NCBI RefSeq assembly: GCF_003259895.1
Contig: NZ_QLME01000006.1
Span: 62,001 to 126,000, forward strand
Source: Halanaerobium saccharolyticum
Lineage (GTDB): Bacteria > Bacillota > Halanaerobiia > Halanaerobiales > Halanaerobiaceae
Length of the DNA stretch: 64,000 nucleotides
Direction: 5' to 3'
In this document: positions 3,989-51,570 of the stretch, one piece after another
Layout: every line of letters begins with the position of its first letter
Numbering within the stretch: the first letter of the stretch is position 1
Made by a program: the position numbers and the translations under genes
Notes under the pieces: model-generated
Seen by the model: only the letters and a program-made list of their open reading frames with translations
The model's database searches: none
Told to the model about the DNA's origin: nothing

Positions 3989-4672
3989 TTAGAAACTATA
4001 TGTTAAACCAGCAGTATAAGAAAATCCATTACTGTATACATTACCTTCTTCATCATCATCCATTTCTAAATATAAATAATCTAAACCTGCATTAAAATCC
4101 CAGTTATCAGCAAAAGATCTTTCATAACCAACCCCCATACGATAACTAACTGCATCTAAATCAACTTCTTTATCTACTAAACCAGAAGCAGCAAAAGCTT
4201 GTCCTTCAAAATTTTTATCTTTTGTACCTTTGTAAAATGCTACTCCACCACCAACTGTCCAACTTTCATTTAATTAATAATCAGCTAAAAATGCAAGTCC
4301 ATTCAATACTACATCTATTTCTGCTGATCCACTACCTAAAGCTGAGTCGAATTTAGTTTCTACAGCACCAAAAATACGCTCATACTGAACTGTAGTTGTC
4401 CATTTATCATTCAAATTCTTTTTAGCACCAACATAAATCATTGGAACTCTATCTATATTTTCCATTTCTTCAATATTGCTTGTTGGAATTGCTCCTCTAA
4501 AATCACTCGCAACTAATGTATTTAAATCATCAATTGTAGAATTCCATTTATCTAGTGTAACATTGGTAATAGCCATTCCACCAACCGCTTTCCAATCAGA
4601 TGCTGCTGCACTACCTGCCATCAGTCCTACTATCATTAAAGCCATCATTAACACTATAATTTTATTCTTCAC
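3989..4672 (-). pseudogene. Outer-membrane barrel protein gene interrupted by one in-frame TAA
   Basis: Reading from the GTG at 4672 (AAGGAGG upstream), a signal peptide (about 1-24, ending SAAAS) is followed by barrel-like strands. Codon 133 is TAA (4274-4276). The same frame then continues without any shift for 94 more codons: LNESWTVGGGVAFYK, further strands, and a typical barrel ending AGLTYSF at the stop at 3989-3991. The whole frame would be 227 residues, usual for a small outer-membrane protein. One base change (AAA Lys to TAA) would explain the break. Without the second half the barrel could not close. A sequencing error or read-through are the alternatives. Confidence 0.75.
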
Positions 4673-4790: not shown

Positions 4791-6695
4791 TTAGAAGCTT
4801 ACGGATAAGGAAGTAGTAAGTGCAGAACCTTCGCCTTCTACTTCGTTAATACCAACATCACCCATGATATACTTCGCTTCTGTATTCCATGTCATGTTGT
4901 CAGCTAATTCTTTGTCTAAAGTACCTTTTAGATAGTTATAGTTAATTACGTTATCTCCATTTTCGTCTTCTTCGTTCTTGTTAACTAAAGCAACACCAAG
5001 TGTAGTTGTTTCGTTCCAAGCATACTCAGTACCTAATTCGATAACCATTGTAGTATAATCTTCTAAATAATTATCATTCATTGTATATGATACAGAAGCA
5101 TTATTTGTGAAGTCACCATATACATTTTCAAGACCTAAGTCTACAGTACTCTTATCTTCATCAGCATTTACTGCATAATAAGCAGAATCTCCAGGCTGAA
5201 CAAATGTATAAGCACCTGTTATAGTGTTATTTTCATTTAATACATACTCAGCACCAATGTTAAATAAGTTGTAATCACGGTCTTCTTCGAAATCAGGATT
5301 ATATCCATAGAAATTCTCTCCAACTGTTTCTGCTTTAGCATCTAAAGTAAGCTCTTCAGTTGCAGCGAATTCACCATTAACCATTGCATAAATGTCACTT
5401 TCGTCTTGTGCAGTGTTATCATTGAAAGCAACTTCTCCACCAACAGTTACTACATCTGTTAATACTACGTCTTCAATTCCTATACCTACAGTAGAAATTT
5501 GATCTCCACCTAATCTAGCTTGGTATAAGTTACCAGTTACTGTACCGAAGTCCATATCTTTTGCAGCTGTTACACCATAAACATCAGTTTCAGAACCATC
5601 ATCAGTATCTTCACCTGCTGCTAAGAATGTCCAGTCGATATCATAGTAGTTTTTAGCAACTTCAAGACCTCTTAAGTCTTCTTCATCATTGAAGTAACGA
5701 GCTACACCATAATCAGCGTGGTCTCCAGCTTTCATTGTAGCACCATAATATTCTACAGTCAGAAGAGCAGAATCCATTACAAAATCCTTGGAATCTAATT
5801 CTTGATAACCAAAGGCACTATCTTCTTCAGAGAACATGTTTGTAAATGTATCTACATCTAAGTTAAACTTAGCTTCACCTAAGTTACCATTAATGTTGAA
5901 GTCATATTCCTGCCAGAATCTCTTTTCAGATGGAAGAGCATCTCCGTCTTCCCAATCTTCACCAGTTTGTGGAAAATTATTTGCTGTCAATCTATCAATA
6001 TATCCATCTGCAGTATTTGCAAGATCATTTGCATCATAAGCATTGTTAGCTACAGGCATATCTAAATCTAAAGCATCACCATCAGCCCAAAGTAACATAG
6101 AAGCAACTAATTTTTCATTAGTTTCGTCTTCATAGTTAGCTACTTCAAAGCTAGTTGTTACATCCATACCAAATTCAATGTTATCTTCTGGTACGTCCAT
6201 AGCGTCTACCTTAGCAGCTAATTCGTCTACGTCTTTGCCTAAAGCATCGATGTCTGCACCTAATACTTTAAGTTCAGCTTGTAGTTCGAATGTTAAAGCA
6301 TCAACGATATCTGCTACTTCTTCAGCTTGAGCATCGCTTAAGCTGTCCTGAGTGTTCTTTTCCATTAAAGACTTAACGATAGCAGTTACGTCTTCAGCCT
6401 GACCTGTAGTTAGACCTTCGCCCATTTCGTCAACCTGGTTTGCTAGAGCTTCTTGCTCAGCAACAATGTTGTCTAATGCGCGGCTAACCATAACAGCCAT
6501 TTCGTAACGAGTCATGTTCTGGCTACCTTTGTATTCGCCATCAGGATAACCTTCGACGATACCAGCAGCAACTAATTTGTTAATTGCATCATATGCCCAG
6601 TGATCACTTGGTACGTCAGAGAATGACTGACCAAATGCAGGCATAGCTAATGCTACGACTAAAATTAAAGCAATTGTAATTGTAAGTTTTTTCAT
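4791..6695 (-). CDS. ompM: SLH-domain outer-membrane porin of the OmpM type
   Basis: 634-residue protein with a Sec signal peptide (about 1-22), one S-layer-homology domain (about 24-68, FSDVPSDHWAYDAINKL ending in the TRYEMAVMVSRAL motif), a coiled-coil linker (about 72-170) and a long C-terminal barrel ending SLSVSF. In diderm Firmicutes such proteins are abundant porins that also tie the outer membrane to peptidoglycan through the SLH domain. The sequence is strongly acidic, which fits a high-salt habitat. AAGGGGG precedes the ATG. Expression probably starts at the promoter at 6943-6972 through a long leader. The symbol is by architecture; orthology to Veillonella ompM is inferred. Confidence 0.88.
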   Translation of the reverse strand: MKKLTITIALILVVALAMPAFGQSFSDVPSDHWAYDAINKLVAAGIVEGYPDGEYKGSQNMTRYEMAVMVSRALDNIVAEQEALANQVDEMGEGLTTGQAEDVTAIVKSLMEKNTQDSLSDAQAEEVADIVDALTFELQAELKVLGADIDALGKDVDELAAKVDAMDVPEDNIEFGMDVTTSFEVANYEDETNEKLVASMLLWADGDALDLDMPVANNAYDANDLANTADGYIDRLTANNFPQTGEDWEDGDALPSEKRFWQEYDFNINGNLGEAKFNLDVDTFTNMFSEEDSAFGYQELDSKDFVMDSALLTVEYYGATMKAGDHADYGVARYFNDEEDLRGLEVAKNYYDIDWTFLAAGEDTDDGSETDVYGVTAAKDMDFGTVTGNLYQARLGGDQISTVGIGIEDVVLTDVVTVGGEVAFNDNTAQDESDIYAMVNGEFAATEELTLDAKAETVGENFYGYNPDFEEDRDYNLFNIGAEYVLNENNTITGAYTFVQPGDSAYYAVNADEDKSTVDLGLENVYGDFTNNASVSYTMNDNYLEDYTTMVIELGTEYAWNETTTLGVALVNKNEEDENGDNVINYNYLKGTLDKELADNMTWNTEAKYIMGDVGINEVEGEGSALTTSLSVSF

Positions 6696-6936
6696 TATTA
6701 AAATCCCCCTTGATTGTTTTCTAACTTTTTCTTTTCAATATATAAGTTCTAATAACTTATACAATCATAGAGGACATCCGAGCGAGTTACCTAGTTTCCT
6801 CTTCAGCTGTCCAAAAGATTTAAGATAAGTATCTTAGAACTCTCATAACTCTACCACCACGCAGCTTCGGGGGGCACCTCCTTTCTGCCGCATTTTAGCG
6901 TCGAGTTTATAAGCATTATTAAATTATCAATTTGCA
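6696..6936 (-). promoter_or_regulatory. Long, potentially folded 5' leader of the SLH-porin mRNA
   Basis: About 240 nt lie between the predicted transcription start and the porin ATG, with no gene. The following complementary pairs are seen on the minus strand: GAGTTA (6846-6851) with TAACTC (6784-6789); GGACA (6809-6813) with TGTCC (6772-6776); AGAGGA (6797-6802) with TCCTCT (6769-6774), which competes for the same bases; AAGATACTTATCTT (6822-6835); and ATAAGTT/AACTTAT (about 6741-6761). A run of six C lies within a GC-rich segment at about 6865-6900. I could not match it to a riboswitch class I know. Confidence 0.5.
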
Positions 6937-6942
6937 AATTAA

Positions 6943-6972
6943 ATTATAACAGCAAATTACTCTTCCTGTCAA
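6943..6972 (-). promoter_or_regulatory. Near-consensus sigma-A promoter of the SLH-porin gene
   Basis: On the minus strand a perfect TTGACA (6967-6972) and a perfect TATAAT (6943-6948) are 18 bases apart. This is the strongest promoter match I found in the window and fits a highly expressed porin. The start would be near 6936. Confidence 0.7.
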
Positions 6973-7012: not shown

Positions 7013-7426
7013 TTAATCATCTTCGTCAATCTTTTTAAGATATTTTTCACCAATTATCAAGGCTGCGTAGTCATCAAGCGGTTTTTTTACCTTCCAGCTG
7101 ACCATTTTCCGCAGCAGTTTTTCGTAATTGGACATTGGCTTTTCTTCTAAATACCGGGTCTGAGCCTCTTCGGTTGTGTATTTTTCTTCTATTAGAGTAA
7201 TCTCCAGATCAGGATAGGCACTGCTGATCATTTCTTTTACAGCTTCAGCCCCGGTTCCATTACCGATTACAATCTCTTCTATCTGATAGTGGCTGAAAAT
7301 TTCTTTTAAATGATCCAACAGCTCTTCTTTTTTAACAATAGTTTTTTCTCTCTCATCCTTAGTAAAGCTCAAAACTGCAGTCCCAACTTTATCACTGCCG
7401 GGATCAAGCGCCAGTAAATCACTCAT
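7013..7426 (-). CDS. YqgF/RuvX-like RNase H fold protein
   Basis: 137-residue protein beginning with LLALDPGSDKVGTAVL, the first acidic strand of the YqgF/RuvX RNase H-like fold. It continues with a nucleotide-binding-like EEIVIGNGTGAEAV segment, IEEKYTTEEA and a late acidic DDYAAL motif. These match the three acidic positions of the family in order. YqgF processes pre-16S rRNA in E. coli, but this copy is divergent, so RNA or Holliday-junction specificity is only inferred. GGAGG precedes the ATG at good spacing. The start overlaps the end of the DUF3084 gene by 8 bases, so the two are probably translationally coupled. Confidence 0.7.
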   Translation of the reverse strand: MSDLLALDPGSDKVGTAVLSFTKDEREKTIVKKEELLDHLKEIFSHYQIEEIVIGNGTGAEAVKEMISSAYPDLEITLIEEKYTTEEAQTRYLEEKPMSNYEKLLRKMVSWKVKKPLDDYAALIIGEKYLKKIDEDD

Positions 7427-8729
7427 TACTATCTACCTCCCCGGCAGCTGAACTATCAGCCGAATTATCTTCCAGTTCAAATCTTAGGTTATCACTTAAT
7501 CTATCCTGGCGCCAGATGTCTGTATCCGCATAAATGTTGACCTTTACTTTACCACTGGCAGAACGAACTTGATTAACCAGATCATAAAACTGACTAAAGT
7601 TAATACTTCCTACCTGACCAGAATTGTCAGGTAATAAGCCCTGGTTAATAGCTTTTTCGTTAATATCCTGCAGCAGTGCTTCCAGTTCAGTCTCGATTTC
7701 TTTACTGTTCTGTTCAGCACTGATTTCCCGGCTGCTGATCAGCTGTCCCTGTTCAAATACTTTAAAGTCCTCGTAAAGCTGAAAGTTTGCATAAAGCCAG
7801 TCATTTTGAGGAACATTAACCCTGGCTATCAGAGAAACAATTACTCTACTGCCGGAATCCATATTATAAATTATCCGGGCAGCATTTAAAATATCCTCTG
7901 TCTGCAAACGCAGAGCCATCCCAGTTTCTTCGTTTACTTCAATTTCTTTTTCTCGGGCCACCTCATTTGCTGCCTGCAGATATCTGTTTAAAGCAGAGAT
8001 AGTTTCCTGTTCACTGCGCCCACCTTCAAGTACATCGGTGTAAACTACATCACCTTTTTGATAAACCATATCCTCACCCATATAATAAATCACACCGGCC
8101 TGCAGCTGATTTGCAACCTCACGCAGTTCATCATAATCTGCTTCCAGTTCGGATATCTGATTGTCGAGTTCAGCAATTTGGGATTCCAATTCCTCTCGCT
8201 GAGAACTTAATTCATCAACCCGATTCTGCAGCTGATCCCGATTCTGGGTTAATTCTTCCAGTTCATTTTCCACAGCTGCTATTTCCTTATCTTTTTGAGC
8301 TATTTCTGCTTCCCGGGCCTCGATTTCAGCTTCTTTGCTGGCAATCTCTTCTTCTCTTGCTTCAATTTCCTGCTGCAGCTCTGACAGCTCCTGGTCTTTG
8401 GATTCCAGTTCCTGATCTTTAGCCGCCAACTGTTGATCTCTATTTTCCAGTTCTTGATTTAAATATTCAAGTCTTGTTAAAACATCATTAATATTAAATA
8501 AAGCCTGACGCAGTTCAGAATAAACTGCAAGTAAAATAGTAACTGATAAAACGGCGATTAAAATTCCGGTAACAATGGTAATAATAATTGAAGAATAACG
8601 GGGGCGGAGACCAAATAAAGAAACACGCCTTTTACCCATTTTCATCCCAATCCGATCACCAAGATAGGCGATTAAACCACTTAAAACCACTACTGCTCCT
8701 ATAATTACAAATGCGTTAATAATCTCCAC
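7419..8729 (-). CDS. DUF3084 membrane-anchored coiled-coil protein
   Basis: The N-terminus has two membrane segments (about 5-25 and 45-70) around the signature LIAYLGDRIGMKMGKRRVSLFGLRPRY (positions about 19-46), which defines DUF3084, a family well represented in cyanobacteria. A heptad-rich coiled coil follows (about 90-215), then a globular C-terminal half to residue 436. Its function is unknown; an envelope-spanning or scaffold role is inferred from architecture. The listed GTG overlaps the AGGAGG ribosome binding site (8729-8734), so real initiation is probably a few codons later, perhaps at ATT 8720-8718, eight bases after that site. The Skp and DUF3084 coiled coils are unrelated in their flanking domains. 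Confidence 0.8.
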   Translation of the reverse strand: MEIINAFVIIGAVVVLSGLIAYLGDRIGMKMGKRRVSLFGLRPRYSSIIITIVTGILIAVLSVTILLAVYSELRQALFNINDVLTRLEYLNQELENRDQQLAAKDQELESKDQELSELQQEIEAREEEIASKEAEIEAREAEIAQKDKEIAAVENELEELTQNRDQLQNRVDELSSQREELESQIAELDNQISELEADYDELREVANQLQAGVIYYMGEDMVYQKGDVVYTDVLEGGRSEQETISALNRYLQAANEVAREKEIEVNEETGMALRLQTEDILNAARIIYNMDSGSRVIVSLIARVNVPQNDWLYANFQLYEDFKVFEQGQLISSREISAEQNSKEIETELEALLQDINEKAINQGLLPDNSGQVGSINFSQFYDLVNQVRSASGKVKVNIYADTDIWRQDRLSDNLRFELEDNSADSSAAGEVDSNE

Positions 8730-8750
8730 CTCCTATTGTGTTATTCTAAA

Positions 8751-10505
8751 TTATTCAATCTCTGTTTTCAATGCCAGTTCCTTACCTTTAAAACCAATTC
8801 CCAATTTATATACTTTCTTTAAACCCTGCTTTTTTAAAGCCTCTGCATATTTTTGTTCATTTATCTGCTGCAGTGCTTTTTCAGCTGCAGCTGCAGCTGA
8901 AATATCAGAAGTCGTATACTCATTTTTAAATTCCATCACAAAAGCATCCTGATCCGTATCTTTCGGCAAAAGTACTACATCGGCTCTCCCCAGCCCATAC
9001 TCTTTGTTGCTTTCTAAATAATACTTATCAGATAAATAGGTCATCAGCCCTAAAATCAGGCCGTGATAAAAATTTTCCTGTTTTTCTTTTTCCTGACCTA
9101 TTTCTGAAAGAACCCTGGTAGAAGCAGCTGCATCATAATAGCTGCTGCTGACAAGTATTAAATCCTGAAGATGAATTTCAAAACTACTCAAATCACCTTT
9201 GATTAGAGAATTTAACATATCCACAATTAAATCTCCACTCTGCTCCTCAAAATTAAACCAGTTGGCCAGAATGTTTTTGAAAATTAGCCTGATTTCCCGA
9301 TTGGGAATGCTGAGGCTATATTTGGGATATGCTTGACCTTTCTTCTCGGCCTTTAAATAACCGCTGTGCAGTAAAAAACTCAAAGCTTTATCAACATCAT
9401 TAAATACATAATCATAGATAATATTGCTGTCAACTTCTACTTCCAGCGACTGCCCCTGATATAGTTTTTCTAAATACTCTTTTCCTTTTTTCTGATCCAG
9501 CTGCAGTGCTTCTTTAATCAACCCCGGATCACCCGTATTATTCCAGTATGTTTGGGGCTGTTGGGGGTTGGACTTAACAAAATTAAGAATACTCCAGGGA
9601 TTATAGATCACAACTCGATCACCGAAAAGATAGCCATTATACCAGTCACGAACGATATCCAGCTGATCGCTAATTGAATAATAAGCAAGCATTTCTTTGA
9701 CCTCTGCTTCAGTGAAACCAAATTTATCCGCACAAAATGAATCAATAATTGTATTTGTTTCCGGATTATTAAAAGCACTAAAAATACTTTCCTGTGAAAT
9801 TTTCATAATACCGGTAACCACACCTTTTTCCAGGCTGTCATTACCTTTAAGACCATCAATCATTAAAGCTCTCATAAAATTTAACATTTCATCATAATAA
9901 CCATTGAGTTTAGCATAATGCAGAGGGGTATCATATTCATCAATTAAAACAATACTTTTTTCGTTAAAATATCTTTTTAAATAATCAGTTAGTTCCTTAA
10001 TTGCAGAACTATAGTTGAAAATCTGTGCTTCTTTCCGCATCAGTTTTTGATATTCATCTTTTTCGAAATCTGTCAGCAGATTAGAATCCAGTAAATAACG
10101 GTGCCGCTTGTATTCTCTTGCGATTTCTTCTTTTAGAAGATAGGCAGCCTCCTGCCAGTTATTAGCCTTAATTTTTTTGAAAGAAAAATTGAGCAGAGGA
10201 TAGCGGCCCTGATGTTCTGCAAGCAATTCCTCTTCTGAAGCAATATCCAATTTTTTAAAAAGATATTTATAACTTTGATCCTGATTATCAAACTTTCTGC
10301 ATTCCGGTTTTTCTAAAAAACATTTCAGCATCGAGAAGTTTAAACTTTTGCCAAAGCGGCGGGGACGGGTAAAAAGCATTATTTTACTTGTATTATTAAT
10401 CACTTCTTTAACAAAAAGTGACTTATCAACAAAATAAGCATTTTTATCCAGCAGCTCTTTAAAATTATCTATTCCAAGTGGTATTCCTTTTAAAACTTCA
10501 GCCAT
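8751..10505 (-). CDS. AAA-like ATPase fused to a PD-(D/E)XK nuclease-like domain
   Basis: 584-residue protein of the AAA-ATPase-like/DUF1703 family. The N-terminus has the family opening GIDNFKELLDKNAYFVDKS, a Walker A variant in RPRRFGKSLN (about 46-57) and a Walker B-like SIVLIDEYDTPL (about 184-195). The C-terminal part has a PD-(D/E)XK-like core: GRADVVLLP followed by FVMEFK (about 510-530). Such genes are often multicopy and scattered in anaerobes; their role is unproven. It sits between a DUF3084 gene and the Lpt genes without obvious functional link, which suggests later insertion. An ATG with a reasonable upstream purine stretch (AAAGGATGGG) was chosen. Confidence 0.85.
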   Translation of the reverse strand: MAEVLKGIPLGIDNFKELLDKNAYFVDKSLFVKEVINNTSKIMLFTRPRRFGKSLNFSMLKCFLEKPECRKFDNQDQSYKYLFKKLDIASEEELLAEHQGRYPLLNFSFKKIKANNWQEAAYLLKEEIAREYKRHRYLLDSNLLTDFEKDEYQKLMRKEAQIFNYSSAIKELTDYLKRYFNEKSIVLIDEYDTPLHYAKLNGYYDEMLNFMRALMIDGLKGNDSLEKGVVTGIMKISQESIFSAFNNPETNTIIDSFCADKFGFTEAEVKEMLAYYSISDQLDIVRDWYNGYLFGDRVVIYNPWSILNFVKSNPQQPQTYWNNTGDPGLIKEALQLDQKKGKEYLEKLYQGQSLEVEVDSNIIYDYVFNDVDKALSFLLHSGYLKAEKKGQAYPKYSLSIPNREIRLIFKNILANWFNFEEQSGDLIVDMLNSLIKGDLSSFEIHLQDLILVSSSYYDAAASTRVLSEIGQEKEKQENFYHGLILGLMTYLSDKYYLESNKEYGLGRADVVLLPKDTDQDAFVMEFKNEYTTSDISAAAAAEKALQQINEQKYAEALKKQGLKKVYKLGIGFKGKELALKTEIE

Positions 10506-10586
10506 TTTTACCCATCCTTTCTATAAATATAATTTAAGATAAACTAAAAGATAAACTAAAAACCAATTAACTCCTGATTAGTCAGC

Positions 10587-11687
10587 TTACTGTCTGGCAG
10601 TCTTAATCAGCAGTCCAACTCCAACAATAAAGATTACGATATTCTGCAGCCAGGCTCCTAACCAGGGCTGGATGCTGCCCTGACTGCCCAGGGCATCGCC
10701 AACTGTCATTAAAATATAGTAAATAAAAATAATAATAATACTGATTCCAAATCCGGTTGCCGAACCGGCAGAGCGCTGAGGTTTAATCCCCAGCGGTGCT
10801 GCCAGCAGGGCAAAGATAAAGCTGGCCAGAGGTATAGAAAAGCGGTGATGCAGTTCCACCCGTTCCTCATAAGCTGTCCTGCCCTGTTCCTCTTTCAGCG
10901 CAATATGCTCATTTAATTCTCTAATATTCATCTCATCTATATTTTTACCCAGCTGTCCGGCCTGAGTCGGAGAATGAATTTCCTCCCGGGAGCGGTAAGT
11001 ACTGAACTCTAAGGCCGGCTGCCGATTATTCCTGTCCAGAAAATAAACCGTCCCATTATAGAAGTGCCAGCCATCACTCAGCCATTCGGCTCTCTCTGCT
11101 TTGAGTACACTATCCGGCTCACCATCCTCAAAACTCTGAACAACCACATCTTCCATCATCCCGGTATCTCCATTAAATCTGTAGGCATAAAGCATATAAT
11201 CCGGACGGCGGGTGCTGCTGTCCATCGGTGTTAAAAATAAATCATACTGGGTTTCCGGTCTCTGTTCACCATGACGGGCCTGATACATAATCTGCTCAAC
11301 CTGATAGTTGGCATTGGGGACCAGAAACTCCGTAATTGCAACTGTAACTCCACTGGTCACCAGTCCCATAATTAGTGCAGGCAGCACAAGCGAAATAATG
11401 CTGACTCCTCCGGCTCTCATGGCAGTAATCTCGCTGTCTCCGGAAAGCCTATTATAGGCCATAATCGTCCCCAAAAGTGAAGCCATAGGGAAAGTAAGTA
11501 CTATAATTTCCGGCAGGTTTAAAAAGAAGAGCCGGATTAAAGTAAAAACATCTACTCCCCACTCAGTATAAAATTCTGTCAGCTCAAAAATTAAATCCGT
11601 ACCGATAAAAATACCGGTAAAGGCTGCCACCCCAAAGAAAAAAGGTGCGATCAATTCTTTATAAATATATTTGTTAATTGTTTTCAA
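10587..11687 (-). CDS. LPS export permease of the LptF/LptG family
   Basis: 366-residue membrane protein with the LptF/LptG (YjgP/YjgQ) layout: three membrane helices at the N-terminus (to about 110), a periplasmic beta-jellyroll-like domain (about 125-265), and three helices at the C-terminus. The AMRAGGVS motif after the third helix is typical. With LptB it extracts lipopolysaccharide from the inner membrane. Only one such gene is in this block, although the known transporter is an LptF-LptG heterodimer; the partner may lie outside the window. The start is TTG, eight bases after GAGGTG. It is the last gene of the envelope block and lies 15 bases after lptB. Confidence 0.88.
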   Translation of the reverse strand: MKTINKYIYKELIAPFFFGVAAFTGIFIGTDLIFELTEFYTEWGVDVFTLIRLFFLNLPEIIVLTFPMASLLGTIMAYNRLSGDSEITAMRAGGVSIISLVLPALIMGLVTSGVTVAITEFLVPNANYQVEQIMYQARHGEQRPETQYDLFLTPMDSSTRRPDYMLYAYRFNGDTGMMEDVVVQSFEDGEPDSVLKAERAEWLSDGWHFYNGTVYFLDRNNRQPALEFSTYRSREEIHSPTQAGQLGKNIDEMNIRELNEHIALKEEQGRTAYEERVELHHRFSIPLASFIFALLAAPLGIKPQRSAGSATGFGISIIIIFIYYILMTVGDALGSQGSIQPWLGAWLQNIVIFIVGVGLLIKTARQ

Positions 11688-11702
11688 AAAAGATGCACCT
11701 CA

Positions 11703-12422
11703 CTATATTTTGAATTTATCGCCCAGATAAAACTTGCGGGCCTGCTCATTTTCTGCTATCTCCTCTGACGTTCCTGAAAGTAAAATTTTGCCCTCATGCA
11801 TAATGTAAGCTCGATCGGTAATCGAAAGGGTTTCGCGCACACTGTGATCGGTAATTAAAACCCCAAGTCCGCGGTTTTTTAGATAGCGAATTATTTCCTG
11901 GATATCATTAACTGCTATCGGATCAACTCCGGCAAAAGGTTCATCCAGCAGAATAAAGTCCGGATCAGCTGCCAGAGCTCTGGCAATTTCTACCCGCCTT
12001 CTCTCACCACCGGATAACTGAAAGCCCTTACGGTCTCGCAGACCTTCCACATGGAATTCCTGCAGCAGTTCTGTGATGGCAGCTTCAATTTCCTGACTGC
12101 TTAAATCTCTATATTCCAAAATTGCTTTCAGATTCTCACCCACTGTTAACTTACGGAAAATCGAGGCCTCCTGCGGCAGATAACCGATCCCCAGTCTTGC
12201 CCGTTTATAAACGGGTAGATTGGAAATATTATGCTGATCAAAAAATATCTGACCACCATCAGGATTAATCAGCCCCAGAATCATATAAAAGGTAGTAGTT
12301 TTACCAGCCCCATTGGGACCCAGAAGACCCACAATCTGGCCGCGGTCAACCTGTAGATCTACTTCGTTAACAACTCTTTCTTTATTATATTCTTTAATTA
12401 AGCCCTGAGCTTTAATAGTCAT
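11703..12422 (-). CDS. lptB: LPS export ABC transporter ATPase LptB
   Basis: 239-residue ABC ATPase with Walker A GPNGAGKTT (about 35-43), Q-loop in IGYLPQEASIFRKLT, signature LSGGERRRVEIARAL and Walker B FILLDEP followed by the LptB-like FAGVDPIAV stretch. These features separate LptB from general ABC ATPases. It powers the LptF/LptG permease encoded next to it. It starts with ATG four bases after the stop of lptA, so the Lpt genes form one transcription unit. Confidence 0.94.
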   Translation of the reverse strand: MTIKAQGLIKEYNKERVVNEVDLQVDRGQIVGLLGPNGAGKTTTFYMILGLINPDGGQIFFDQHNISNLPVYKRARLGIGYLPQEASIFRKLTVGENLKAILEYRDLSSQEIEAAITELLQEFHVEGLRDRKGFQLSGGERRRVEIARALAADPDFILLDEPFAGVDPIAVNDIQEIIRYLKNRGLGVLITDHSVRETLSITDRAYIMHEGKILLSGTSEEIAENEQARKFYLGDKFKI

Positions 12423-12426
12423 TCAA

Positions 12427-13080
12427 TTATTCCTCCACTGTCTCACTGTCACTGCTCTCAGGATCCTGAATTTCCTGATCCTCACTAAAACGCAGAGTAG
12501 CCTGACCCCGCAGCTGAACCTCTTCTGTCTGCTGATCAATCTCTGCTGATTGAGAGCTAAAACTTTCTCCATTCCGCTCACCGCGGACATTACCTTCTAA
12601 TAGAATTAATTCCTGGTCCAGATGATAGGTTATCTGATCAGCTTCAGCCCAGAAATCATTATATTCCAGATAGCCATTACCTCTAACTTCTATTCTATCT
12701 TCTGCCCGATAAATATCAATTTTATCTGCTCTCAGCAGAGAATTTTGGCCTCTGACCTCAGCTTCTTCAATCAAATGAAAGACTTCTGCTTCCAGGTTTC
12801 CCGTCAACTCAACCGCCTCAGCCTCAAATTCCTGATAAAAAAGTTCTACATTGTTTCTGAATTCAATTTCTCCATTATAGCGGCGGTAAATCCCTTCATC
12901 TGCGGCAGTGATTCGGAGCTGATCATAGATCAACTCCACATTACCGGTTGCTGTAAAAATCTGACCCTGCTCAGTCTGCTCAAATTCCAGATTGTCCCCG
13001 TTCAATTCTCTAACAGCACTCGCATTTGCAGTCAGTGCTAAAATAAATATTAATAAAAAAAATAAAATTTTTTTCTGCAT
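12427..13080 (-). CDS. lptA: LptA/OstA-like periplasmic LPS bridge protein
   Basis: 217-residue protein with a Sec signal peptide (about 1-23, ending ANASA) and an OstA/LptA beta-jellyroll: repeated short strands such as GQIFTATGNVELIYD, IEFRNNVELFYQE, LEGNVRGERNGE. LptA multimers bridge the inner and outer membranes for LPS movement. The C-terminus is an acidic tail. GAGGAG precedes the ATG. Its place between lptC and lptB matches the usual lptCAB order in Proteobacteria. Confidence 0.88.
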   Translation of the reverse strand: MQKKILFFLLIFILALTANASAVRELNGDNLEFEQTEQGQIFTATGNVELIYDQLRITAADEGIYRRYNGEIEFRNNVELFYQEFEAEAVELTGNLEAEVFHLIEEAEVRGQNSLLRADKIDIYRAEDRIEVRGNGYLEYNDFWAEADQITYHLDQELILLEGNVRGERNGESFSSQSAEIDQQTEEVQLRGQATLRFSEDQEIQDPESSDSETVEE

Positions 13081-13116
13081 TTTTATTGCTCCTCATCTGA
13101 GTTGGTCGACCTTAAA

Positions 13117-13686
13117 TCATTCGTCAAAACTATCAAATTTTACTTCAGCCCGGCCATTATTTCCGGAAAGTTTTAAATTATTAAGATTAAGATCAGAATT
13201 AAAACTTTGAGCCCGAGAATTAAAATCACTGCCAGTAATTTTAACTGAGCCCCTGCCCTCTAAATAATTGCGGCTTAGATAATAATCCAGTTCCTCTGAT
13301 TCAATCTGATAGCGATCACTATCTATCAGAACATTACCCCTGATTTCAAGATAATCCTGATTGGTGTAGTAAATTGCAAAATCACCAGTTAAAGTATAAA
13401 GAAGTTGACCACTATTGGTTGAATAAACTTCAGCTTCAATGGGTCTTAATTCCATTCGGTTTTCATTTTTATAGTTCTGCAAATTTTCGCTTTCTAATTT
13501 AAGTTCATGTTCCTGCTGGTCATTAAAGATACTGAAATTTACATTTTCCAGCTCTTCTTCCGGCAGTTCTTCATTTTCTGCTGCCGGCTCCGGAGGAGTA
13601 ACCGGATTTTCCTCTAGAGTAAAATAGAATGAAAAAGCTATGATAATAAAAATAAAGAGCGCTAAAAAAATACCTTTTCTATCCAC
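13117..13686 (-). CDS. lptC: LptC-like LPS export protein
   Basis: 189-residue bitopic protein: one N-terminal membrane anchor (about 5-23), an acidic proline/glutamate-rich linker, then an LptC-type jellyroll (about 75-185) with the paired pattern EVYSTNSGQLLYTLTGDF and LEIRGNVLIDSD. LptC receives LPS from LptB-F-G and passes it to LptA. The GTG start overlaps the end of lpxB by 8 bases and has GGAGGG ten bases upstream inside lpxB. Confidence 0.85.
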   Translation of the reverse strand: MDRKGIFLALFIFIIIAFSFYFTLEENPVTPPEPAAENEELPEEELENVNFSIFNDQQEHELKLESENLQNYKNENRMELRPIEAEVYSTNSGQLLYTLTGDFAIYYTNQDYLEIRGNVLIDSDRYQIESEELDYYLSRNYLEGRGSVKITGSDFNSRAQSFNSDLNLNNLKLSGNNGRAEVKFDSFDE

Positions 13687-14824
13687 TATTTTTTAGCCCT
13701 CCTTCTCTAAGCAGTAAGTCTGCTGTTTTTTCCACTGCTCCTCCTCCACCAAGTTTTTGGCGGACAGTCTGCAGTTTCTCTTTTATTTTATTAAGTTCTT
13801 CTCTGTCATTTAACCAGTTTAAAGCAAGTTCAGCAATCCTTTCTGCCTCAAAATCATTCTGCAAAAGTTCGGGTACAACTTCCTCTCCGGCAATAATGTT
13901 GGGTAATCCCACAAACTCTACTTTAAATACATATTTCGCCAGCAGATAGGTAGTCAAAGCTGCCTGATAGGCAATGATCTGCGGTGTGTTTAAAATCGAA
14001 GCCTCCAGAGTTGTAGTCCCTGAAGCAGAAATTATGAATTCTGAAATCTTCATCAATTGATAATTTCTTTTTTGAACAATTTCAAGCTCGAAATCAACTT
14101 TTTCGGTAAAAGATTTTAAATAGTCAATCTTAATTCCTTCTGCCGCTGCAAGTAAAAACTTAAGCTCCGGTTTCTCTTTTTGTATTTTTTGAGCTGCCTT
14201 CAGCATCTCCGGCAGCAGAGATTCGATTTCTCCCCTGCGGCTGCCCGGGAAAAGCGAAATTACCGGCTGTTCCGGTTTCAAATCCAGCTCTTTTTTGATT
14301 TCGGCTTCTGATTTTTCAACATCTACCAGATCTACCAGCGGATGGCCGACAAAAGTCACCTCAGCTCCAGCTGCCTGATAAACATCTCTTTCCATGGGAA
14401 AAACTGCTGCAATATGGGTTCCATAAGCAGCCATTTTATCAGCCCGGCGCTTATTGTAGACCCAGGCAGAGGGAGGAAAATAATTAACTGCCTTAATTCC
14501 TTCCTGACTGCAGGCTTTTGCCAGCTTCATATTAAAGGCAGAATAGTCTACCAGAAATACCAGATCCGGCTGTCGCTGCCGCAGCAGCTTTTTCATCTGC
14601 TTAAGATGTTTAAAATGCTGTCTAATATTCTTTAAAGCTTCTATATAACCGATAGTACTGATTTCGGTGGGGTCGATTAAAATCTCTGCCCCCATTTCTT
14701 TAAGGGCAGTTGAACCCATCCCGAAAATTTGCACACTATCATTTTTTTCTTTTACTTTTTTCAGGACTGCTGCAGCATGCATATCACCAGATACTTCACC
14801 TGCAGAAACCATTATTTTTGCCAA
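13679..14824 (-). CDS. lpxB: Lipid-A-disaccharide synthase
   Basis: 381-residue GT19 enzyme that joins UDP-2,3-diacylglucosamine and lipid X to form the disaccharide of lipid A on the inner face of the cytoplasmic membrane. The N-terminal IMVSAGEVSGDMHAA signature, the central LFPGSRRGEIESLLP motif and the donor-site segment SASGTTTLEASILNTP are all present in the right order. Length matches the family. The gene overlaps lpxI at its start by 13 bases and lptC at its end by 8 bases. Confidence 0.95.
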   Translation of the reverse strand: MAKIMVSAGEVSGDMHAAAVLKKVKEKNDSVQIFGMGSTALKEMGAEILIDPTEISTIGYIEALKNIRQHFKHLKQMKKLLRQRQPDLVFLVDYSAFNMKLAKACSQEGIKAVNYFPPSAWVYNKRRADKMAAYGTHIAAVFPMERDVYQAAGAEVTFVGHPLVDLVDVEKSEAEIKKELDLKPEQPVISLFPGSRRGEIESLLPEMLKAAQKIQKEKPELKFLLAAAEGIKIDYLKSFTEKVDFELEIVQKRNYQLMKISEFIISASGTTTLEASILNTPQIIAYQAALTTYLLAKYVFKVEFVGLPNIIAGEEVVPELLQNDFEAERIAELALNWLNDREELNKIKEKLQTVRQKLGGGGAVEKTADLLLREGGLKNSG

Positions 14825-51075: not shown

Positions 51076-51330
51076 CTATTTTTTTATTTGTATATTTATC
51101 TCATTTGTTCTTATTTGTTCCTTCGTTGTAATTATACCTGAAACAGTATACTTGCCCTCAGCTAAAGAAACATCTGATTTACCATTATATTCTTTTGTTT
51201 CACCTGGTTTTAATTCTAAATGACCTAAAACTTGATAAAACCCTTTATTATCTGACCAAAACTTAACAGTCTCATTTTCTTCATTTTTGATAATTACATC
51301 ATTCCTCTGGTTAATAATATTTGCTTCCAC
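51076..51330 (-). pseudogene. 3' fragment of a BsuPI-domain (protease inhibitor-like) gene
   Basis: 84 residues that match only the second half of the BsuPI domain: VKFWSDNKGFYQVLGHLELKPGETKEYNG and then GKYTVSGIITT. Intact BsuPI domains have about 40 more residues at the front, which carry the first strands. Upstream, the DNA changes directly into group II intron sequence (51331-51570). The missing part was therefore probably lost in that rearrangement. The GTG at 51330 has no convincing ribosome site. It may be expressed as a remnant, but a folded domain is unlikely. Confidence 0.6.
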
Positions 51331-51570
51331 TTCATCTATCTACTGTATTTACACTTCATATCTTGAATAGTTTTGAACTTCGTTTTGTTCAGCAAACACA
51401 CCCACAGGATTGTGCCTTTTATACAGTTCGTATTCCTCAGAGCAAAGCTTTGCCTCTAACTTACTGCAGATACACCTCAGGATGTACACCCCTGTCTTCA
51501 ACTAGCGATTAGCACTATTAACCCCCACATCAGATTTTCACTGAGTAGCGAATATTCATGCCAGATAAAC
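51331..51570 (-). mobile_element. 5' fragment (domain I) of a group II intron
   Basis: On the minus strand the sequence from about 51560 down to 51331 shows the domain I landmarks of bacterial group II introns, in order: GGCATGAATATTCGCTAC, CAGTGAAAATCTGATG, GAAGACAGGGGTGTACATC, GAGGCAAAG, TCTGAGGAATACGAAC, GTTTGCTGAACAAAACGAAG and AGTAGATAGATGAAGTGGAA. These resemble the Oceanobacillus-type IIC intron from memory. The usual 5' GTGYG is changed to GTTTATC. Domains II-VI and the reverse transcriptase are absent. It is a dead remnant. Confidence 0.75.

Follow-up and report, generated by a model that had tools for sequence, protein, structure and literature searches.

A conserved leader RNA upstream of outer-membrane SLH-porin genes carries two putative anti-Shine–Dalgarno elements

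What does a leader of some 240 nt do in front of a porin gene, and does its fold control that gene? The question arises in Halanaerobium saccharolyticum, in a 64,000-nt window (RefSeq assembly GCF_003259895.1, contig NZ_QLME01000006.1, positions 62,001 to 126,000; all coordinates below are those of this window), where such a leader precedes an SLH-domain porin gene on the minus strand. Comparison with relatives indicates that the leader belongs to a large family of structured RNAs absent from Rfam, of which it is the local representative. In most phyla that carry it, two segments appear from their covariation to have co-evolved to pair with, and hide, the ribosome-binding site of their own gene. 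We consider it probable that the leader is a cis-acting RNA element gating translation of the major outer-membrane tether/porin gene.

Two putative anti-Shine–Dalgarno elements in a two-domain leader

The leader lies behind a minus-strand promoter with TTGACA at 6972-6967 and TATAAT at 6948-6943, separated by an 18-nt spacer with a TG before the -10 box. It is the best of 20 sites within 5 kb. Read off the -10 box, the transcription start would lie near 6936, leaving ~241 nt up to the ATG at 6695; a second, weaker promoter-like site at 7029-7001 could give an extra, longer transcript. The first-pass annotation had predicted both the perfect promoter and a structured leader of ~240 nt, and both are borne out, with 12/12 promoter matches and the ~241 nt set by the inferred start. 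The leader comprises domain I, a long stem of helices P1, P1b and P2 with a large apical loop (AGAAAGGAGGUGnCCCC), and domain II, a longer stem tipped by a near-invariant hairpin, RAGGAAACnnGGnnACUY. These parts, with the promoter and the gene, are as follows.

6943..6972, minus strand: sigma-70-type promoter, TTGACA-18-TATAAT with extended -10 box, from the promoter scan
6696..6936, minus strand: untranslated leader of ~241 nt, its start taken from the -10 box; homologues in relatives
6903..6914, minus strand: P1 5′ strand GCTTATAAACTC of domain I, paired with 6842-6851; covaries
6897..6900, minus strand: P1b 5′ strand CGCT, a short helix with 6855-6858, from inspection of alignment A4; two of its pairs enter the covariation counts
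6887..6892, minus strand: P2 5′ strand TGCGGC, paired with GCTGCG at 6860-6865; two-sided changes in 5/6 pairs
6875..6886, minus strand: decoy Shine–Dalgarno sequence AGAAAGGAGGTG, carried by the domain I loop and perfectly complementary to the 16S 3′ end
6869..6874, minus strand: CCCCCC, first putative anti-Shine–Dalgarno element (ASD1), -12.0 kcal/mol with the Shine–Dalgarno (SD) region; co-evolves across the family
6842..6851, minus strand: P1 3′ strand GAGTTATGAG of domain I, from covariation
6834..6840, minus strand: P3a 5′ strand GTTCTAA of domain II, paired with 6746-6752
6825..6830, minus strand: P3b 5′ strand ACTTAT of domain II, paired with 6755-6760
6808..6812, minus strand: GGACA, lower stem of domain II, paired with TGTCC at 6772-6776 in the predicted fold
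6780..6804, minus strand: hairpin at the apex of domain II (loop GAAACTAGGTAA, 6787-6798), the most conserved part of the family
6761..6775, minus strand: GTCCTCTATGATTGT, second putative anti-Shine–Dalgarno element (ASD2), the 3′ strand of domain II; 14 pairs with 6703-6717, coevolution z -7.8
6703..6717, minus strand: SD region ACAATCAAGGGGGAT, target of ASD1 and ASD2
4791..6695, minus strand: the controlled gene on our reading, encoding an SLH-domain porin (OmpM-type outer-membrane tether) of 634 aa; Pfam SLH, E 2.6e-14

The domain I loop presents AGAAAGGAGGUG, exactly complementary to the 16S 3′ end; that end, GGATCACCTCCTTTCT, was located in the same genome, and the decoy SD matches the whole 16S tail. 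This 12-nt exact complement contains GAAAGGAGG. Counting ATG alone, a start codon lies at initiation distance behind the decoy SD in 2/143 relatives and in none of the other 141. A leader-peptide attenuator was rejected on that count, and the leader holds no terminator-like site.

ASD1 consists of the bases right after AGGAGGUG, which are complementary to the SD region of their own gene and change with it. Over 138 distinct loci, duplicate records having been removed by sequence ahead of all statistics, the cognate ASD1:SD duplex has a mean of -11.66 kcal/mol versus -9.07 kcal/mol (standard deviation 0.18) for permuted pairings (0/5000), and permutation within SD classes gives the same outcome (0/3000). 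The signal holds (z -9.1) when redundancy in the signal peptide is removed, leaving 74 loci. A scan along the leader finds one sharp peak, over the 14 nt that directly follow AGGAGGUG (z -9.9), with values elsewhere between z -4 and +2. For 71 non-redundant loci, z is -10.0 for ASD1 and -7.8 for ASD2, each with 0/5000 permutations; within SD classes both still stand at 0/5000 (ASD2 z -6.2), and the 5′ strand of domain II, taken as a negative control, gives z -1.3. ASD2 coevolution is also seen in Negativicutes that keep the domain II hairpin only (z about -4). The coevolution set excludes the genus of the window, whose hairpin failed the filter, so the ASD:SD pairings of the window are a fresh example.

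Matched changes on both sides are seen directly in ASD1/SD pairs such as CCCTTGAATCG/CGATTCAAGGG in Trueperaceae, CCTTGATTG/CAATCAAGG in a metagenome-assembled genome (MAG) of Halobacteroidaceae, CCTTAGGTT/AACCTAAGG in Negativicutes, CTTGGTAG/CTACCAAG in Atribacteria and CCCTAAGT/ACTTAGGG in a Bacillota MAG. ASD1 and ASD2 have 5.1 SD bases in common on average, lying roughly between positions -18 and -9 relative to the start codon, and because they target largely the same bases they are mutually exclusive. The family thus displays two hallmarks of an anti-SD switch, a covarying segment complementary to the SD and a mutually exclusive alternative pairing of the anti-SD. Two simpler forms of the idea were discarded. 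A fixed CCCCC/GGGGG lock is not general, since the C run is missing in many loci; its matched-complement form is. Within the domain I loop, a local GGAGG/CCCC hairpin is predicted for the genus and is impossible where the C run is absent.

In the window, ASD2 GTCCTCTATGATTGT (6775-6761) forms 14 predicted pairs with ACAATCAAGGGGGAT (6717-6703), worth about -18 kcal/mol. The SD-free fold of the window leader (-56.3 kcal/mol) and the ASD2:SD fold (-54.4 kcal/mol) are nearly alike in energy, within about 2-4 kcal/mol of each other; both keep the apical hairpin, and the remainder of domain II rearranges. The total folding energy of the leader (-58.1 kcal/mol, z -2.19, with 6/200 shuffles as good) is just modestly special and so is not decisive by itself; conservation and covariation lift the leader above chance.

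Two competing folds had been proposed in the first-pass annotation, and the proposal is supported, with ASD2 pairing either with the 5′ strand of domain II or with the SD. Its GGACA/TGTCC pairing (6812-6808 with 6776-6772) is a real helix of domain II and does overlap TCCTCT (6774-6769) at 6774-6772. The TCCTCT strand TGTCCTCTATGATTGT, within ASD2, does switch; its partner is not AGAGGA but the SD region ACAATCAAGGGGGATT, with 14 pairs. The letters of the proposed GAGTTA/TAACTC closure of a multi-branch fold are present, and their pairing is unsupported: GAGTTA sits in P1, where it covaries with the P1 5′ strand, and TAACTC sits in the nearly invariant domain II hairpin. As competing helices, AGAGGA/TCCTCT and GAGTTA/TAACTC are both lost in relatives, which have P1, the domain II hairpin and ASD2:SD instead.

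Conservation and distribution of the leader

By DNA search, the leader occurs upstream of the SLH-porin gene in 12/12 genomes of the genus (78-97% identity to the window), with a second, diverged copy before a neighbouring paralogue in 2 of the 12, and another genus of the family has it at 67% identity. R1, a covariance model built on these genus and family loci, matches 31/38 genomes of the order, and a refined model (R2) matches 32/38, distant families included, with E down to 1e-34. Every order-level locus examined precedes a gene for an SLH-domain outer-membrane protein. The hairpin pattern occurs twice in the window's own genome, once in this leader and once on contig C9, in the leader of another SLH-porin gene. 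That leader (C9:99568-99669, locus L085) is reduced, with hairpin AAGGAAACTAGGTCACTT, a shorter domain II and an AAAGGAG-type SD.

The compensatory changes that the first-pass annotation had asked to look for in relatives are present, and the helices covary. In alignment A4 (21 sequences, aligned with MAFFT and not fitted to a covariance model, though itself the source of the structure), 83.8% of cells pair, and the covariation of 0.288 compares with 0.187 after shuffling (0/500) and 0.09-0.14 in slid controls. Among 95 further matches 82.1% of cells pair, with covariation 0.510 versus 0.143, a set biased towards R2 because it was fitted to that model. In the domain II hairpin, the second outward pair swaps between G-C and A-U and the third among U-A, A-U and G-C, and loop positions 6-7 and 10-11 vary freely. 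The domain II helix varies in length and sequence, and its sole constant is the 12-nt apical loop.

Beyond the order, R2 matches 38 of 299 genomes of the phylum, 33 of them outside the order and some weak. A scan of the GTDB contig collection with the pattern AGGAGGTG N65-95 GAGGAAACNNGGNNACTC returned at least 120 stretches, in which the decoy SD and the hairpin are present by construction because the pattern demanded both. Listed matches come from Halanaerobiales (Halanaerobium, Orenia, Halanaerobacter and Natroniella among them), Limnochordia, Negativicutes, Deinococcota (Trueperaceae, Deinococcales), Atribacteria including Caldatribacterium, one Synergistetes-labelled MAG and unclassified Bacillota. 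Some MAG labels are doubtful, and one Nealsonbacteria-labelled match looks like a misplaced Halanaerobiales contig. An open reading frame (ORF) lies shortly downstream in 121 of the 123 matches listed. Of these ORFs, 88 carry an SLH motif and most of the remaining 33 begin with a signal peptide; eight non-SLH ORFs were tested, and four gave porin or beta-barrel matches, weak to clear.

The hairpin was also searched for by itself, free of the bias of that joint pattern. Pattern GAGGAAACNNGGNNACTC is found in 103/111 Deinococcota genomes, nearly always once (reversed control pattern, 1 hit), and the loci taken lie upstream of Thermus-/Deinococcus-like SlpA-type SLH genes, apart from one or two in which the script did not settle the frame or motif. 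It also occurs in 21/50 Atribacterota genomes (control, 3 hits). Among 24 newly fetched Atribacterota loci, 20 precede SLH genes and carry a decoy SD that the query did not require; one more has the decoy SD and ends before the gene, and three are chance-like. In one Negativicutes family, pattern TRAGGAAACNNGGNNACTYA gives 56 matches in 36/61 genomes (control, 0), and the loci taken, which lack domain I, precede OmpM-type genes except for one contig that ends early. Essentially all loci inspected place the hairpin in the leader of an outer-membrane gene. At least three phyla share the leader, almost always upstream of outer-membrane protein genes.

Several loci show variations on this theme. 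Neighbouring outer-membrane genes each have their own leader copy in L097 (Candidatus Frackibacter, G076 C11), L138 (a Negativicutes MAG), L075 and L100, so the element has been duplicated along with the gene. Repeated GCAGCA / ACGCAGCA units occupy the arms flanking domain II in several Limnochordia-like genomes (L070, L107, L130, L153, L102) and are possibly multiple binding sites. In Thermus/Meiothermus-like slpA leaders (L276-L298), a separate conserved block, for example GGATGTGCAAGGTGAGA or GGGCACGCGTGAGACTTTGC, stands 5′ of the hairpin at the position of domain I, and could represent either a diverged form of that domain or its replacement.

The porin gene itself adjoins a lipopolysaccharide/outer-membrane cluster. 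Upstream of it, 7013-14824 (minus strand) holds a RuvX/YqgF-like gene, a DUF3084 gene and, by eye, LptF/G, LptB, LptA/LptC-like and LpxB genes, together with a 584-aa ORF (8751-10505, minus strand) whose AAA-ATPase/PD-(D/E)XK (DUF1703-like) resemblance was likewise noted by eye only. Immediately 3′ of the porin gene, a short ORF with a signal peptide (4274-4672, minus strand) has no match in Pfam; a similar protein also follows the porin gene in locus L015. The sole Rfam match above cut-off in the window is a group II intron fragment, D1-D4-3 (RF02001, 100.4 bits), at 51316-51486 on the minus strand.

A probable translational gate and its alternatives

We propose that initiation would be blocked when either ASD1, through a long-range pseudoknot, or ASD2, through a nested helix, holds the SD. 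With domain II closed and ASD1 displaced, the SD would be free and the gene translated; ASD2 would have to quit its domain II partner before it could pair with the SD. The decoy SD matches the full 16S tail, shares its loop with ASD1 and is followed by no start codon, so a bound 30S subunit would probably displace the adjoining ASD1. The decoy might then, with less certainty, serve as a standby site that unlocks the gene. Also less certainly, the near-invariant loop of the domain II hairpin may be where a regulator or a component of the ribosome docks and thereby tips the balance between the states. In evolution this hairpin persists where domain I is gone, and it is the best candidate site for regulator binding. 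No result points to the salt or envelope sensing that the first-pass annotation had suggested; its other suggestion, mRNA stabilisation, is still a rival and is taken up below.

Several observations weigh against a switch of this kind throughout the family. Pairing is weak at some loci (4 nt in L310 and L312), most Deinococcota and Selenomonadaceae-like Negativicutes are hairpin-only and lack domain I, and ASD2 coevolution is weak in Deinococcota (best z -2.7). The hairpin-only members and the weak Deinococcota signal mean that the complete switch is not shared by all members. Shared ancestry, moreover, is reduced but not removed by the permutation tests.

The leader might instead be mainly an mRNA stabiliser, in which a 30S subunit parked on AGAAAGGAGGUG and the 5′ structures would block 5′-to-3′ decay of a transcript that is abundant, and SD pairing would be secondary. 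Its appeal is that GAAAGGAGG lies inside the 12-nt exact complement of the 16S end with no ATG behind it in 141/143 relatives, much as STAB-SD is an SD-like, non-initiating 5′ UTR (untranslated region) sequence able to bind the 16S 3′ end (PMC4113751). STAB-SD-style stabilisation would be the main alternative role of the decoy SD; as an account of the leader we consider it unlikely, since it leaves two separate segments co-evolving with the real SD unexplained and the domain II hairpin is conserved also in members without the decoy. We give similarly little credence to a riboswitch with a small-molecule site in domain II or at the junction and with the competition between anti-SD and SD as its expression platform. 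Conserved loops, mutually exclusive pairings and a consistent gene association are typical of that class, but an Rfam match is absent, a typical aptamer core would not keep just a 12-nt apical loop on a helix of changing length and sequence, as domain II does, and the products of the controlled genes are structural proteins with no obvious ligand.

A more plausible though still doubtful reading makes the domain II loop the target of a trans-acting small RNA or RNA-binding protein, whose binding the anti-SD elements would relay. The loop GGAAACnnGGnnAC persists from phylum to phylum, including in members that have lost everything else, the loop of the Rfam family Cyano-1 has the same letters (GGAAACAAGGAAAC), and two porin mRNAs are reported targets of Yfr1 (PMC6778093), the cyanobacterial Yfr1/Yfr2/porin network serving as an analogy. 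No partner emerged, though no search was aimed at one, and this reading is partly compatible with the translational gate. Two specific roles for the loop were considered and set aside. One is mimicry of 16S 1497-1509 (GUAACAAGGUAAC), against which stands the free variation of loop positions 6-7 and 10-11. The other is a CsrA site, suggested by a GGA in the loop; the window has GGU at that place, and CsrA is not known from Deinococcota.

Implications and relation to known systems

A structured RNA that several phyla share and that keeps to outer-membrane protein genes would give the outer membrane of diderm Terrabacteria a common control layer. The debate over the origin of the two-membrane cell centres on the envelope of these bacteria (PMC5007114). 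The two anti-SD elements, the decoy SD and the 12-nt loop offer a precise, mutable target in cultivable hosts such as Thermus and Halanaerobium, and the family may hint at what the conserved loop does in the Yfr2 small RNAs of cyanobacteria. More speculatively, and we would not rate this as likely, the domain II hairpin could be an ancient recognition element of diderm Terrabacteria, coupling the synthesis of outer-membrane proteins either to a common regulator or to free 30S subunits. The leader would then be a ribosome-operated switch, its decoy SD unlocking the real one, and the Yfr2 RNAs would be trans-acting relatives with the same hairpin.

The genes served by the leader family, the OmpM / SlpA tethers of diderm Terrabacteria, belong to an SLH tether system that is already known (PMC10628300, PMC9388160); among the open-access papers that we searched, none describes a conserved RNA leader of OmpM/SlpA genes. 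Nor did a search of Rfam 15 place any riboswitch or leader family above its gathering score, permissive thresholds giving low scores only, in keeping with the earlier remark that the leader matched no known riboswitch. Among Rfam entries, Cyano-1 (RF01701) comes closest in sequence; it is the motif of the Yfr2 small RNAs of cyanobacteria, a hairpin with the same loop letters GGAAACAAGGAAAC. This apical loop is identical in many relatives, for example L045, and reads GGAAACTAGGTAAC in the window. Scores of 17.5 bits in the window and 18.2 and 17.4 in relatives are far below the gathering cut-off of 41 bits, so the leader is not filed under Cyano-1. Yfr2 genes are described as being for the most part transcribed individually, each from its own promoter (PMC8400943), whereas the hairpin of this family sits in an mRNA leader alongside anti-SD elements.

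The decoy SD finds its closest counterpart in the STAB-SD of Bacillus thuringiensis cry3A, whose letters are GAAAGGAGG. STAB-SD is SD-like, lies far upstream and does not start translation (PMC4113751). The decoy is likewise an SD-like sequence in a 5′ UTR without a start codon behind it, ATG alone being counted; unlike STAB-SD, it belongs to a loop in a conserved RNA with two domains, where a co-evolving anti-SD adjoins it. As in translational riboswitches and riboregulators with anti-SD platforms, mutually exclusive pairing would decide access to the SD; the leader differs from these in having two anti-SD elements and a decoy SD, and in serving genes confined to outer-membrane proteins.
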